Shown: positions 1,690 to 59,443 of the stretch, piece by piece | How positions within the stretch are numbered: the first letter of the stretch is position 1 | Layout of the letters: each line of letters begins with the position of its first letter | Assembly (NCBI RefSeq): GCF_024218775.1 | Contig: NZ_CP100404.1 | Span: 248,001 to 312,000, forward strand | DNA: 64,000 nt | Source: Haloarcula marina | Lineage (GTDB): Archaea > Halobacteriota > Halobacteria > Halobacteriales > Haloarculaceae | Direction: 5' to 3' | Program-made: the position numbers and the translations under genes | Notes under the pieces: generated by a model | The model's database searches: none | What the model was told of the DNA's origin: nothing | What the model saw: only the letters and a program-made list of their open reading frames with translations

Positions 1690-3198
1690 GTGAGTACGAC
1701 CGACCGCTCCGTCGACCTGACCGAGGGGCCGTTACTGCGCCCGCTGTTGGCCCTCTCACTGCCGCTCGTCGGCACACAGTTGTTACAGGTCGCGTACAAC
1801 CTCGTCGATACGTTCGTCGTCGGGCAGTTGGGCGACGGCGCTGTGGCGGCGCTGACCTACTCGCTGCCGTTCATCTTCCTGACTATCTCGCTGGGGAGCG
1901 GACTCACCGTCGCCGGGACGGTCCTCGTCTCCCAGCACCGCGGCGCGGGCAACGACGACCGGGTGCGGGAGGTGGCGGGCCAGACCATCGCCGTCACCGC
2001 CGTCGTCTCGGGCCTGCTCTCGCTGGTCGGATTCGGCCTCGCGCCGACGCTCCTGCCGTACATCGGGACGACGCCGGGGACGGCGATTCACGCGATGGCC
2101 GTCGAGTACACCCGCATCGTCTTCGCCGGGACGACGTTCATGTTCGGCGCGTTCGCGTTTCAGGCCATCCTGCGCGGGTGGGGCGACACGAAGACGCCGA
2201 TGTACCTCATGCTCGGAAGCGTCGTCGCGAACGCCGTCCTAGACCCCTTCTTCGTCCTCGGCTTCCGGGACAACGTCGTCTTCTCGCTGGTCGGCCTGGG
2301 CGGCCTGGAATCGACGCTGTACGCCATCACCGGCTTTGCGGGGATGGGCGTCTCCGGGGCGGCCATCGCCACCGTCATCGCGCGCGGCGGCGCGGCGCTG
2401 GCGGGCTTTTGGCTCCTCTTCTCGGGCCGACTCGGCCTCGCCGTCTCCCTTTCGGACCTCCGACCGGACGAGGAGACGGTCCGGAAGATTCTGGACGTGG
2501 GCGGTCCCGCGGGCCTCGAACGGTCGGCCGACTCGCTGGCCTACACCGGCATGACCGTCCTCGTCGCGATGGTCGGGACGGAGGCCGTCGCGGCCTACGG
2601 CGTCGGCAACCGCATCAACACGCTCGTCTACCTCCCGGCGGTGGGCCTCGCACAGGGCGTCGAGACGGCCGTCGGACAGAACCTCGGGGCCGACGAGGCC
2701 GGGCGGGCGCGCCGTGCGGTCCTCATGGCGGTGGGACTGGGCGGCGGCGTCTTCCTCCTCGCCAGCGCCGCGGCCTTCGCGTTCGCGGCGGCCATCGTCG
2801 CCGCCTTCTTCGACGTGAGCAGGACGGCACCGGAAGTCCTCTCGATGGGCGCGGACTACTTCCGAATCATCGGCCCTACCTACGTGTTCATGGGCCTCTT
2901 TCACCTGCTGAACGCCGCGTTCCGCGGGGCCGGGAGCACGCGGACGGCCCTCGGTTTCTCCATCGCCTCGCAGTGGTTCTTCCGCATCCCGCCGACGCTC
3001 GTGCTCATCACCGCCGTCGGCATGGGAGCGGCGGGCGTCTGGTGGGGCATCGCGTTCTCGCACGTCGCCGCCGCGGCACTGGTGGCGGTGTGGTTCCTCG
3101 TCGGCGACTGGGACGAGTCCGTCGTCGACGAGGGGAGCAACGAGGGAGCGAACGACACCGAGGAGTCTGATAGCGAGACGCCCGCAACGGCCGACTAA
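1690..3198 (+). CDS. MATE family efflux transporter (first of tandem pair)
   Basis: A 502-residue membrane protein with about 12 hydrophobic helices in two related halves, as in MATE (MatE) multidrug/cation-coupled exporters. N-terminal motifs such as PLVGTQLLQVAYNLVDTFVVG and the internal GWGDTKTPMYLM stretch are typical of the archaeal DinF-like branch. It starts at GTG 1690, with an AT-rich box near 1660-1668 about 25 nt upstream, which suggests a leaderless message. The C-terminus is an acidic, disordered-looking tail. Its closest relative in the window is the next gene (start 3307), which shares long stretches of identity, so this is a tandem duplication. Its substrate is unknown. Confidence 0.93.
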   Translation: MSTTDRSVDLTEGPLLRPLLALSLPLVGTQLLQVAYNLVDTFVVGQLGDGAVAALTYSLPFIFLTISLGSGLTVAGTVLVSQHRGAGNDDRVREVAGQTIAVTAVVSGLLSLVGFGLAPTLLPYIGTTPGTAIHAMAVEYTRIVFAGTTFMFGAFAFQAILRGWGDTKTPMYLMLGSVVANAVLDPFFVLGFRDNVVFSLVGLGGLESTLYAITGFAGMGVSGAAIATVIARGGAALAGFWLLFSGRLGLAVSLSDLRPDEETVRKILDVGGPAGLERSADSLAYTGMTVLVAMVGTEAVAAYGVGNRINTLVYLPAVGLAQGVETAVGQNLGADEAGRARRAVLMAVGLGGGVFLLASAAAFAFAAAIVAAFFDVSRTAPEVLSMGADYFRIIGPTYVFMGLFHLLNAAFRGAGSTRTALGFSIASQWFFRIPPTLVLITAVGMGAAGVWWGIAFSHVAAAALVAVWFLVGDWDESVVDEGSNEGANDTEESDSETPATAD

Positions 3199-3238: not shown

Positions 3239-3264
3239 ATACTGACTGACCGACCAGTCAGTAT
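3239..3264. promoter_or_regulatory. TetR-type operator on the MATE promoter
   Basis: Perfect 10-bp inverted arms, ATACTGACTG (3239-3248) and CAGTCAGTAT (3255-3264), are separated by ACCGAC. The left arm overlaps a TATA-like TTATACTG (3237-3244), and the right arm ends just ahead of the predicted transcription start (about 3266). The same TGACTG/CAGTCA core occurs in the promoter of the tetR gene at 57378. Binding by that TetR protein is inferred, not shown. Confidence 0.75.
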
Positions 3265-3265
3265 C

Positions 3266-3310
3266 ATGTCGGTCTCCATCTCTTTCGTTCTCCGGAGGTG
3301 TCGACGGTGA
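3266..3310 (+). other. Candidate 14-codon leaderless upstream ORF coupled to the MATE start
   Basis: ATG at 3266 lies about 26 nt downstream of the TATA-like box, which is where a leaderless message would start. It opens a 14-codon frame (MSVSISFVLRRCRR) whose TGA at 3308-3310 overlaps the GTG start of the MATE gene at 3307 in the configuration GTGA. A Shine-Dalgarno-like GGAGG (3294-3298) lies inside it, 8 nt before that GTG. The geometry is seen directly; translation is inferred. Confidence 0.5.
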
Positions 3311-4797
3311 CCGCGACGAGCGAGCAGTCCGAGCGGTTCACGCAGGGGAGTCTGCTGTGGCCGCTCCTGACGCTGGCCGCGCCGTTAGTCGCCACGCAAC
3401 TGCTTCAGACGCTGTACAACATCGCCGACACGTTCTGGGTCGGTCGCCTCGGACAGGAGGCGGTGAGTGCCCTCTCCTTCTCGTGGCCCATCGTGTTCCT
3501 GCTGTTGGGCATCGGCGGCGGGATGACCGGCGCTGGCACGATACTCATCTCACAGAACACCGGCGCGGAGAACGACGACGAGGTGAGCCACGTCGCCGGG
3601 CAGACGCTCGTGTTCGTGACGTTCCTGTCGGTGGCGCTCGCCGCCGTCGGCTACGTCCTGACGCCGACGCTCTTGCAGGTAATCGGGACCGAACCGGGAA
3701 CGGCCATCCACGAGATGTCGGTCACGTACACCCGGTACGTCTTCCTCGGCATCTACTTCATGCTCGGCTTCTTCGTCTTTCAGGCGCTCCTGCGCGGGTG
3801 GGGTGACACGAAGACGCCGATGTACCTGATGGTCGGCAGCGTCGCGCTCAACGTCGTCTTGGACCCGATACTCATCCTCGGGTTCGCGGACAACCCCCTG
3901 TTCGCGTGGGTCGGTCTGGAGGGCGTCGCCGCGAGCGCACTGGCGGCGACTGGCTTTACCGGTCTGGGCGTAGAGGGCGCGGCCATCGCGACGATATTCT
4001 CGCGCGGCCTCGCGGCCGTACTCGGCCTCTGGCTCCTCTTTTCGGGCCACGTCGGCATCGAACTCTCGCTGTCGGACCTCCGTCCGGACTTCGCTGCGAT
4101 TCGGAAACTCGTCCGCATCGGTGCGCCGCTCAGCGTCGAGACCAGCACGCAGGCGCTGTCCGTGACGGTGATGACCGCGCTGGTCGCCATCGTCGGCGCG
4201 GACGCCGTCGCCGCCTACGGCATCGGCGGCCGCTTCGCCTCGCTCGTCTGGTTGCCGATGGTCGGGATGGGCATGGCCGTCGAGACGGTGGTCGGACAGA
4301 ACCTCGGCGCGGGCGAGCGAGCACGCGCCCGCCGGACGGTGTTCCTCGCCAGCGGCATCCTCGTCGGTCTGTTCCTCGTGGTGAGCGCGCTCACGGTCTC
4401 CTTCGCACCTGCCATCGTCGGCGTGTTCATCACCGGCGAGGGGGCCGCCGCCGTCGTCGACCACGGCGCGGACTACCTCCGCATCGTCGCTCCGACGTGG
4501 GCCGTGATGGCCGTCTTCCACATGATAAACGGCGCGTTCCACGGCGCGGGGTCGACCCGCCTCTCGATGGTGCTGGGTCTATTGACGATGTGGGGCTTCC
4601 GGGCCGCCGCGGCCACCGTCCTCGTCATCGTCGTGGGCATGGGCGCGCCCGGTGCGTGGTACGGCATCGCCGCCTCGAACGTCGCCGCCACCGTCGCCGC
4701 CGCGGTCTTCTTCTTCCGGGGCCGGTGGCTGGACGACGTCATCGACGACGAAGCGGGTGAGGACGTGGGCGACAGCGAGAGCGCGGCCGTAGCGTAA
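3307..4797 (+). CDS. MATE family efflux transporter (second of tandem pair)
   Basis: A 496-residue, roughly 12-helix MATE exporter, closely similar to the gene just upstream (for example GWGDTKTPMYLM and VGQNLGAG stretches). Two GTG starts compete. GTG at 3298 would overlap the GGAGG ribosome-binding site itself, while GTG at 3307 is spaced 8 nt from it and overlaps the stop of the upstream mini-ORF by GTGA, so 3307 is preferred. The promoter carries a TetR-type palindrome also found before the tetR-MATE operon at 57.4 kb, so control by that regulator is likely. The C-terminus is acidic. Confidence 0.92.
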   Translation: MTATSEQSERFTQGSLLWPLLTLAAPLVATQLLQTLYNIADTFWVGRLGQEAVSALSFSWPIVFLLLGIGGGMTGAGTILISQNTGAENDDEVSHVAGQTLVFVTFLSVALAAVGYVLTPTLLQVIGTEPGTAIHEMSVTYTRYVFLGIYFMLGFFVFQALLRGWGDTKTPMYLMVGSVALNVVLDPILILGFADNPLFAWVGLEGVAASALAATGFTGLGVEGAAIATIFSRGLAAVLGLWLLFSGHVGIELSLSDLRPDFAAIRKLVRIGAPLSVETSTQALSVTVMTALVAIVGADAVAAYGIGGRFASLVWLPMVGMGMAVETVVGQNLGAGERARARRTVFLASGILVGLFLVVSALTVSFAPAIVGVFITGEGAAAVVDHGADYLRIVAPTWAVMAVFHMINGAFHGAGSTRLSMVLGLLTMWGFRAAAATVLVIVVGMGAPGAWYGIAASNVAATVAAAVFFFRGRWLDDVIDDEAGEDVGDSESAAVA

Positions 4798-52424: not shown

Positions 52425-52516
52425 GTCTCTGTCTCGCCGGTGGAGTGGCCCGGCTATAAACCCTGTGTGACCCGGAGTTGTAACCCATATCAGAGTCCGC
52501 CCTCAAGGGCGTGTGC

Positions 52517-53953
52517 GTGTCGTCCCGGTACAACCCCGTCCGCGGCATCCTCTTGCTCGTCGGAGGCCTCCTCGCTCGCGTCGGCCTCGTCGACCGTGAG
52601 CGTATCACACGGGCGACGGACCTCTCGTGGCCCCGCATCGTCACGGGCCTCGCTCGGATGTCGAAGTCGACGGCCGACGTGGCGATGGTGGGACTGGCGC
52701 TCGGCCCGACGGCCATCGCGGGCGTCGGTTTCGCCACCCCCTTCTGGAACCTCTCCTTCGCGCTCGGCGCGGGCGTCGCCGGAGCGACCATCGGGATGGT
52801 GTCCCAGCGGTTCGGGGCCGACGCCCGCGACGAACTGGCGCTGACGGTCACGACCAGCGCCGCCGTCGTCCTCGCCCTCACGCTCCCCCTGGCGGTCGTC
52901 TACTGGGTCGTCCCCGGTTTCCTAGTCGACCTCGTCGGCTCCGGAACCGACGCCGTGGCCTACGGCGAGCGCTACCTGAAGGTGGTCGCGCTCGGGGCCC
53001 CGTTCGCCGCGCTGAACCTCGTCGGCAGTCGCACGCTCGTCGGGGCCGACGACGCCTACGCGCCGATGGTCTTACGCGGCGGCGGCGCGCTCCTCAACAT
53101 CGCCATCAACGCCGTCCTCGTCTTCGGCCTCGGGATGGGCGTCGTCGGCGCGGCCATCGGCACCGTCGTCGCGAACGTCGTCGTCGCCATCGCTTTCGTC
53201 GTCGGGTTCGCCCGCGGCGGCCTCCCCGGCGTGGATTTTCCCGTCCGAATCCCGCTCTCGCGACCGTTCCTCGACCGCTCGCTGGCCCGTGACCTCGCCG
53301 AGATGGGGACGCCGCTGGTCGGGACGAACCTCGCCCGCACCGGCGCGCAGTTCCCTCGCCTGTTCATCGTCGGCCTGTTCGGCCCGACCGTCGTCTCGGC
53401 GTACGTCGTCGCCCTGCGGGTCCGCGCCCTGCTTGACACCCCCAACTGGGGCCTGAGTCTCGCCTCCAGCAGTCTCGTCGGCCAGGCCCTCGGCGAGAAC
53501 GACGAACGCGAGGCGACGGCGTGGGCCAGCACCGTCCTCCGTCTCGGTGTCGGCGTCTATCTCGTCGTCGCCCTCGGTCTGCTCCCCTTCTCGCGGCAGG
53601 TCGGACGCCTGTTCGTCGACGACGTGGCGGTGCTCGGCCTCGTGACGGTGTTCGTCGCCGTCGCCTGCGTCAGCGTCGTCTTCCGCGGCGTCGACGGCGG
53701 TGCGACGGGACCGCTCAGGGCCAGTGGCGACACCCGCTGGCCGCTGTACTCCCAACTGGCCGGGATGTATCTGTTCGCGCTCCCCATCGCCTACGTGGGC
53801 ATCCTCGTCCCCGCTATCGGCGTCCTGGCGCTGTATGCGTCCCTGCTGGCGGAGACGGCCGTCCCCGCCGCTATCACGTACTACCGGTTCGTCTCCGGAC
53901 GGTGGCGCGTGGTGAGTCGGTCGTATCGGCCCGACGCCGCGCTGGACGACTGA
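52517..53953 (+). CDS. MATE family efflux transporter
   Basis: A 478-residue MATE exporter with about 12 helices. It belongs to a subgroup different from the pair at 1.7-4.8 kb, with a longer N-terminus (MSSRYNPVRGILLLVGGLLAR) before the first MatE repeat and SKSTADVAMVGLALGPTAIAG in helix 1. GTG 52517 is favoured over GTG 52511 because it gives the usual SSRYNP start. No TetR-type palindrome of the 3.24/57.35 kb kind is present upstream. The downstream YihY gene lies 44 bp away. Confidence 0.9.
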   Translation: MSSRYNPVRGILLLVGGLLARVGLVDRERITRATDLSWPRIVTGLARMSKSTADVAMVGLALGPTAIAGVGFATPFWNLSFALGAGVAGATIGMVSQRFGADARDELALTVTTSAAVVLALTLPLAVVYWVVPGFLVDLVGSGTDAVAYGERYLKVVALGAPFAALNLVGSRTLVGADDAYAPMVLRGGGALLNIAINAVLVFGLGMGVVGAAIGTVVANVVVAIAFVVGFARGGLPGVDFPVRIPLSRPFLDRSLARDLAEMGTPLVGTNLARTGAQFPRLFIVGLFGPTVVSAYVVALRVRALLDTPNWGLSLASSSLVGQALGENDEREATAWASTVLRLGVGVYLVVALGLLPFSRQVGRLFVDDVAVLGLVTVFVAVACVSVVFRGVDGGATGPLRASGDTRWPLYSQLAGMYLFALPIAYVGILVPAIGVLALYASLLAETAVPAAITYYRFVSGRWRVVSRSYRPDAALDD

Positions 53954-57349: not shown

Positions 57350-57363
57350 TGACTGACCAGTCA
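57350..57363. promoter_or_regulatory. TetR operator in its own promoter
   Basis: TGACTG (57350-57355) and CAGTCA (57358-57363) form a perfect 6-bp inverted repeat around AC, 15 bp ahead of the tetR ATG (57378). The position covers the likely TATA/start region. The longer operator at 3239-3264 shares the arms and most of the centre, suggesting the same binding protein and autoregulation here. Confidence 0.72.
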
Positions 57364-57377
57364 GTTAGTTACTACTA

Positions 57378-57974
57378 ATGAGCGACGGCGACCCCTCCGA
57401 GGACATCATGGGCGCGACGTATCGCGCGCTGTGTGCCCACGGCTACGCCGACCTGACGATGCAGGACATCGCCGACGAGTCGGCGAAGAGCAAAGCGGCG
57501 CTGCACTACCACTACGACAGCAAACACGACCTGCTGTGTGCGTTCTTGGAGTACCTCTACGACGGTTTCGTTGAGCGCACGGCCGACGTGGACGACGCGG
57601 ACTCCCACGAACGACTCCTCGCACTCGTCGACGCCGTACTGGATAAACCGGACGACGACAGCGAGCAGTTCGGAACCGCCATCCTCGAAATCCGCGCACA
57701 GGCCCCCTACGAACCGGGCTTTCGCGAGCGCCTGACGCGGTTCGACGACTATCTGGTCGACCGCCTGACCGACATCCTCGAAGCGGGCATCGACGACGGC
57801 ACGTTCGACCCGGAGATGGACTCCGAAGACACCGCGCGGTTCGTCGTCACCGTCCTGACCGGCGCGGCGACTGAGCGCGTCACCGCCGGCCGTCCAACCG
57901 AGTGTACCCGCCGGATGCTCACCGAGTACGTCGAGACGCACCTGCTGGCCGACACACAAGAGGTCGAGGCGTGA
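57378..57974 (+). CDS. TetR/AcrR family regulator
   Basis: A 198-residue TetR-type repressor with the N-terminal helix-turn-helix (about residues 14-55: YADLTMQDIADESAKSKAALHYHYDSKHDLL) and a helical ligand-binding domain with a C-terminal half typical of the drug-sensing group. Its TGA overlaps the GTG of the MATE gene by 4 bp (GTGA), showing a TetR-MATE operon. A palindrome upstream suggests self-repression relieved by a ligand also exported by MATE; another MATE gene at 3307 carries a matching site. Confidence 0.94.
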   Translation: MSDGDPSEDIMGATYRALCAHGYADLTMQDIADESAKSKAALHYHYDSKHDLLCAFLEYLYDGFVERTADVDDADSHERLLALVDAVLDKPDDDSEQFGTAILEIRAQAPYEPGFRERLTRFDDYLVDRLTDILEAGIDDGTFDPEMDSEDTARFVVTVLTGAATERVTAGRPTECTRRMLTEYVETHLLADTQEVEA

Positions 57975-59443
57975 GCGACGGGATACTCGCCCGCATCGGG
58001 AGCCTGTTCAAAGGGCAGGAGGAACTGGAACTCACCAGCGGCCCCATCGGGAAGCCCCTGCTGTACCTCTCCTTTCCCATCGTCATCACGAACCTCTTGC
58101 AGGTTGCGTACAACCTGGCCGATACGTTCTGGTTGGGCCAGTACAGCACGACGGCGCTGGCGGCCATCTCCTTCGCGTTCCCGATGATTTTCCTGCTCAT
58201 CTCGCTGGGGATGGGCCTCTCGGTGGCCGGGAGCGTCCTCGTCGCCCAGCACACCGGCGCCGAGGAACCCGAGAAGGCCGAGTACGCCGCCTCGCAGACG
58301 CTGACGTTCGCCGTCGCCGCGTCCCTCTTTCTGGGGACGGTCGGTTTCTTCTTCGTCGAGGACTTCCTGCGACTGCTCGGGGCCTCCCAGCAGGTCCTGC
58401 CGGGCGCGACGGGCTACTTACAGGTGGTCTCGCTCGGCCTGACGACGATGTTCGGCTTCTTCGTGTTCATCTCGCTGATGCGCGGGTCGGGCGACACCAT
58501 CACGCCGATGCTCGTGATGTTCGGGACCGTCGTCCTGAACATCGTCTTGGACCCGTTCCTCATCTTCGGGTGGGGCCCCTTCACCGAGATGGGCGTCGTC
58601 GGCGCGGCCGTCGCGACCATCTTCTCGCGAGGGCTGGCGTTCATCGTCGGCATCGCCATCATGCTCCGTGGCAACCGGGGCATCCAAATCAACCCGGCCG
58701 ACATGGTCCCGGACTTCGGCTATCTGAAGAAACTGCTCGCGCTGGGGATTCCGGCCTCGGTCGAAGGGACCGGCCGGGCGCTGTCGGTCAACGTGATGCT
58801 GTTCATCGTCGGGACGTTCTCCGTGACGGTGGTCGCCGCCTTCGGCGTCGGCATCCGCATCTTCTCGCTCGTGTTCATGCCCGCCATCGCGATGGACCGC
58901 GGCGTCGAGACGATGACCGGGCAGAACCTCGGGGCCGACCGGCCGGACCGCGCGGCGAAGGCGAACCACTTCGCCGCGAAAGTGTCGTTCGTCGTCTTGA
59001 CGGCGCTCGGCGCGGTCACCATCTTCGCCGCGCCCGCTGTCGTCAGCGTGTTCAGCGACGACCCGGCCGTCGTGAAAGTCGGCGCGGAGTTCCTCCAGTG
59101 GGTCGCGCCCACCTTCGGATTCATCGGCGTCGTTCGCGCCTACTCCGGCGGATTCCGCGGGGCTGGCAAGACTCTCACGTCGGCGGCGCTCGCGGTCCTC
59201 ATGCTCGGGGTCATCCGCGTGCCGATCGCGTGGGTCGCCTCGCGGCCGGTCGTGGTCCCGGCGTGGCTCGGGCAGTCAATCGTCGACCTCTTCGCCTTCT
59301 CGCTGGCCGAGCAAGGCATCTGGCTCGCCTTCGGCATCTCGAACGTCCTCGCGGCCGGTATCGCCCTCGCGTGGTTCCTCCGCGGGACGTGGCGCGACGC
59401 CGACCCGCGGGGCGGTCCCGACGCCACCATCGCCGACGACTGA
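57971..59443 (+). CDS. MATE family efflux transporter (TetR operon)
   Basis: A 490-residue MATE exporter starting at GTG 57971, translationally coupled to the preceding tetR. About 12 helices are visible in two halves (first repeat LQVAYNLADTFWLGQ, later MRGSGDTITPMLVM). The sequence is related to the pair at 1.7-4.8 kb (shared QVAYNLADTFW-type start, SLGMGLSVAGSVLVAQHTGA). Because tetR and this gene are one operon, the ligand is probably a toxic compound or drug-like cation exported by this pump. Confidence 0.93.
   Translation: MSDGILARIGSLFKGQEELELTSGPIGKPLLYLSFPIVITNLLQVAYNLADTFWLGQYSTTALAAISFAFPMIFLLISLGMGLSVAGSVLVAQHTGAEEPEKAEYAASQTLTFAVAASLFLGTVGFFFVEDFLRLLGASQQVLPGATGYLQVVSLGLTTMFGFFVFISLMRGSGDTITPMLVMFGTVVLNIVLDPFLIFGWGPFTEMGVVGAAVATIFSRGLAFIVGIAIMLRGNRGIQINPADMVPDFGYLKKLLALGIPASVEGTGRALSVNVMLFIVGTFSVTVVAAFGVGIRIFSLVFMPAIAMDRGVETMTGQNLGADRPDRAAKANHFAAKVSFVVLTALGAVTIFAAPAVVSVFSDDPAVVKVGAEFLQWVAPTFGFIGVVRAYSGGFRGAGKTLTSAALAVLMLGVIRVPIAWVASRPVVVPAWLGQSIVDLFAFSLAEQGIWLAFGISNVLAAGIALAWFLRGTWRDADPRGGPDATIADD

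Follow-up and report, generated by a model that had tools for sequence, protein, structure and literature searches.

A palindrome shared by a TetR-family gene and an unlinked MATE pump gene suggests a small efflux regulon in Haloarcula marina

The window, by which we mean the whole stretch of DNA analysed (64 kb out of a 3.74 Mb genome), contains four MATE genes and the gene of a TetR-family regulator. The tetR gene (57378..57974, forward strand) encodes a protein of 198 aa with a helix-turn-helix whose recognition helix reads SKAALHYHY. Its product matches TetR_N (3.5e-09; PF00440 at 36.7 bits against a curated cut-off of 24) and TetR_C_6 (4.1e-14), the C-terminal domain being of the BetI type. 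It is homologous over residues 4-187 to PDB 3crj (E 6.7e-42), a solved TetR-type transcription regulator, and together with the Pfam matches this homologue settles the fold. The solved protein differs in its helix-turn-helix, IADEYGKSTAAVHYYYDTK, which is that of a class of paralogues with no MATE gene beside them on the same strand in the loci read. The tetR-linked pump gene, MATE3 (57971..59443, forward strand; Pfam MatE 1.2e-59), starts in the GTGA at 57971-57974, where its start overlaps the tetR stop. The unlinked pump gene, MATE2, is localised at 3307..4797 on the forward strand (MatE 8.7e-61), and its product shares 38% identity with MATE3 and 53% with MATE1. Solved homologues of MATE2 include the archaeal PF0708 MATE (4mlb/3vvn), and proteins 80-87% identical to it occur in Haloarcula pellucida, Halomicroarcula rubra and Haloarcula amylovorans. 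PF01554 gives two stretches over the cut-off in each of the three pumps scanned, and by family these proteins are predicted to be cation-coupled drug exporters.

A palindromic operator in the own promoter is a trait of the TetR family, and such a palindrome is found before tetR. The sequence TGACTGACCAGTCA, pointed out by the earlier note, is located at 57350-57363 upstream of the tetR ATG at 57378; the complete putative operator, TGACTGACCAGTCAGTTA, occupies 57350..57367 on the forward strand, with the dyad axis between 57358 and 57359. Its core occupies bases -26 to -13 relative to the ATG, and the operator overlies the predicted core promoter. The promoter was compared among tetR orthologues from 30 genomes of the genus, the window genome included, with protein identities of 68-100%. 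Of the 30, 28 retain the 14-bp core ACTGACNNGTCAGT unchanged, with CA as its centre in 25, TG in 2 and CG in 1; in the species G026 and G001 it has drifted by two changes to ACTGGCTGGTCAGC. In all 30 loci this core starts 25-26 bases before the ATG, and a same-strand MATE homologue comes after tetR.

The arrangement extends to other genera and families, in which tetR homologues with a downstream MATE gene nearly always have an operator at most one mismatch from ACTRACYRGTYAGT. The exceptions among these tetR-MATE cassettes are L139, with 2 mismatches, and L222, which departs from the longer consensus at 3 positions. Homologues of tetR without a MATE neighbour usually lack the operator, and some of them (L147, L149, L152, L154) carry it. 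Across the cassettes the palindrome reads TnACTGAC-YR-GTCAGTnA. In L117, L131 and L134 it reads ACTAAC-YR-GTTAGT, ACTGAC/GTCAGT being altered on both arms, and it is this compensated change that fixes the symmetry axis. The tetR axis is thus 57358.5 and not 57356.5, 2 bp to the right of the axis of TGACTG-AC-CAGTCA on which the earlier note had relied; the wrong axis was chosen because the site consists of repeated ACTG/CAGT units.

Upstream of the MATE gene at 3307 the second palindrome described, ATACTGACTGACCGACCAGTCAGTAT, is indeed found at 3239-3264. It had been taken for the tetR site expanded by 4 bp in its centre, and this insertion model was rejected: with the dyad defined by the cassettes, the MATE2 site has the arm spacing of the tetR site, with two substitutions and no insertion, and the additional 4 bp are therefore an artefact of register. 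Two overlapping registers of the putative MATE2 operator can be placed on the forward strand, TGACTGACCGACCAGTCA at 3243..3260 (axis 3251.5) and TGACCGACCAGTCAGTAT at 3247..3264 (axis 3255.5), each with 2 mismatches to the 18-bp consensus. The substitution A3253T in G029 affects an already mismatched position of the 3243 register, which stays within 2 mismatches, and a core position of the 3247 register, which goes to 3; since a single substitution in one species is thin evidence, both registers were kept. Reading the site solely as TGACCGACCAGTCA, one mismatch from the 14-mer of the earlier note, was discarded given that the 3243 register has the higher score and withstands the substitution in G029, and TGACCGACCAGTCA is retained as the second register.

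Six species of the genus set (G000, G029, G030, G026, G001 and G015) have MATE2 with MATE1 upstream as a tandem pair, and the site is present in five of these. It is missing in G015, though both tetR and MATE2 are there; G006 and G031, whose MATE2 genes are more distant, lack it too. Across the five species 28 of the 31 positions of the block are invariant, compared with 14 of 40 in the upstream flank and 10 of 30 in the downstream one. The block begins at a TATA-like TATAC, ends just short of a possible start codon at 3266 and covers the predicted core promoter.

The likeness of the two sites was analysed with weight matrices, applied to the window and to simulated sequence, whereas the whole genome was searched by pattern. 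A matrix built from the cassette operators ranked the MATE2 site next after tetR within the window. With a matrix from outside the genus tetR scored 33.3 bits, the 3243 register 22.2 and the 3247 register 20.0, against 8.8 for the best unrelated place of the window, and 0 positions reached at least 22.2 bits in 12.8 Mb of simulated first-order Markov sequence. The pattern CTGACTGN{0,12}CAGTCAG occurs once in the window, against a mean of 0.00 in shuffles. In the genome, the exact 18-bp consensus has one occurrence, at tetR, and the tetR operator is likewise the sole exact match of TNACTGACYRGTCAGTNA. Six places differ from the consensus at 2 positions, and the overlapping MATE2 registers account for two of these. 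The motif scan, for which many unrelated copies had been named beforehand as a refuting outcome, thus gave no flood of copies but one exact place and four with 2 mismatches outside both promoters. Counts at 3 mismatches do not exceed the control, and consequently the motif is informative only near its exact end; the reversed-pattern control of the TGACYGACCAGTCA genome search gave no information, as the reversed pattern occurs within the tetR site. The four other 2-mismatch places were inspected as possible regulon members and set aside. One of them (G000:C1:1893346-1893363) is situated some 70 nt upstream of a gene resembling superoxide dismutase.

On these grounds the motif shared by tetR and MATE2 is real and very probably functional. 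We propose that the TetR protein (57378-57974) represses its own tetR-MATE operon and, in trans, the unlinked MATE gene at 3307, 54 kb away. In this mechanism a TetR dimer would bind operators of the TnACTGACYRGTCAGTnA type overlapping the core promoter, and repression would most likely occur by blocking general factors or polymerase. By analogy with the TetR family, a pump substrate or a related compound may bind the C-terminal domain of TetR and release it from the DNA, raising both pumps together. We assign this reading, autoregulation of the operon with repression of MATE2 in trans and ligand release, a probability of roughly 0.78. The small efflux regulon under one repressor that the earlier note had suggested is well supported by the five-species conservation, the out-of-genus matrix, the rarity of the motif and the lack of another TetR with such an operator. 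The idea that the palindrome links tetR with the MATE genes holds for the shared motif and is incomplete in its reach, the operator being absent at two of the four MATE genes of the window, those at 1690-3198 and 52511-53953. Against the regulon stand the 2 mismatches of the MATE2 site in either register, the lack of the site in G015, G006 and G031, and the drifted tetR operator of G026 and G001. The fourth MATE-family gene of the window (52511-53953, forward strand), without operator, lies 4 kb from tetR.

A different regulator could bind the MATE2 site, either another TetR-type protein or one that the profile search missed, in which case the operator type would be shared and the repressor not. 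This is the situation that G026 and G001 bring to mind, where MATE2 coexists with another TetR that has two exact operators in tandem, and the operator of the window-tetR orthologue has drifted; in those species the second tetR-MATE cassette may own the MATE2 site. The window genome, however, has only five TetR_N proteins in the profile search, and none of the 25 genome places with at most 3 mismatches lies near the other four genes. Moreover, TetR regulators usually control themselves, which also counts against a separate repressor, and we give this explanation a small chance.

The position of the MATE2 palindrome, spanning TATAC to the predicted transcription start, could suit a core-promoter element or an RNA hairpin rather than a repressor operator, and for this reason promoter function would be expected to account for some of its conservation. 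Nevertheless the conserved sequence agrees in detail with the tetR operator consensus, and G015 retains the gene and the possible start codon without the palindrome, which makes this explanation very unlikely. That two unrelated palindromes are alike by chance seems barely credible: the four other 2-mismatch matches in the genome and the 3-mismatch counts at control level speak for it, but chance would account neither for conservation in five species between diverged flanks nor for the empty simulation at the matrix score of the site.

Control of MATE2 by the window TetR in trans is consistent with what is found in other haloarchaea. The pumps closest to MATE2 in Haloferax, Halogranum, Halobium and Haladaptatus (55-57%) are part of tetR-MATE operons whose operator is exact or has 1 mismatch, and in Halogranum amylolyticum, Halostagnicola sp. 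A56 and Natrialba chahannaoensis (L227, L229 and L246, respectively) there are MATE genes that bear the operator and have no tetR next to them. MATE2 fits this orphan pattern, in which the operator would have been kept and the adjacent repressor lost or never present. Pump genes of this sort, which retain the operator although no tetR adjoins them, are probably under control in trans. The second cassette of G026 and G001 (L110 and L111) has its two tandem exact operators 24 bp apart, and is found in the same two species whose window-tetR orthologue has the drifted operator. In L117, L131, L139 and L141 two tetR paralogues are arranged divergently; one precedes a MATE gene and has an operator of the ACTAAC/GTTAGT type, and the partner tetR has a different recognition helix.

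The proposed system resembles those of the SmeT/SmeDEF (PMC3128119 for SmeT) and QacR/QacA type in having a TetR_N repressor, a palindromic operator in its own promoter and a pump gene as target. It differs from them in being archaeal, in involving MATE and not RND or MFS pumps, and in having an operator also at a second pump gene 54 kb off. An archaeal TetR-family precedent for two dimers on overlapping repeats is FadRSa of Sulfolobus acidocaldarius, which governs fatty acid metabolism, responds to acyl-CoA, and binds a pseudopalindrome as a dimer, an overlapping repeat at one of its operators taking up a second dimer (PMC6449355); the overlapping registers of MATE2 are deduced from sequence. 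In the dimer-of-dimers operators of the QacR type, two dimers bind two overlapping inverted repeats; MATE2 has two candidate registers 4 bp apart with 2 mismatches each. The MATE2 operator might take two TetR dimers, or one in either register, and so have an induction threshold different from that of the linked pump, while in those sister species that have a second cassette, drift of the original tetR operator would have accompanied the division of repressor specificities; we put this forward tentatively and consider it unlikely.

No description of the motif or of haloarchaeal TetR-MATE control was found in the open-access literature searched. The arrangement is ordinary in kind, and the operator family is one for which that literature gave no earlier report. 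The present analysis defines an operator for a widespread family of haloarchaeal TetR-MATE cassettes, and efflux regulons should therefore be predictable in haloarchaeal genomes.

Between the MATE2 operator and MATE2 there is a putative leader micro-ORF, MSVSISFVLRRCRR, at 3266-3310 on the forward strand, whose stop overlaps the MATE2 start in a GTGA. Haloarchaeal overlapping gene pairs can show translational coupling (PMC6728339). Six species of the genus preserve the frame of the micro-ORF across a 6-nt difference in length.
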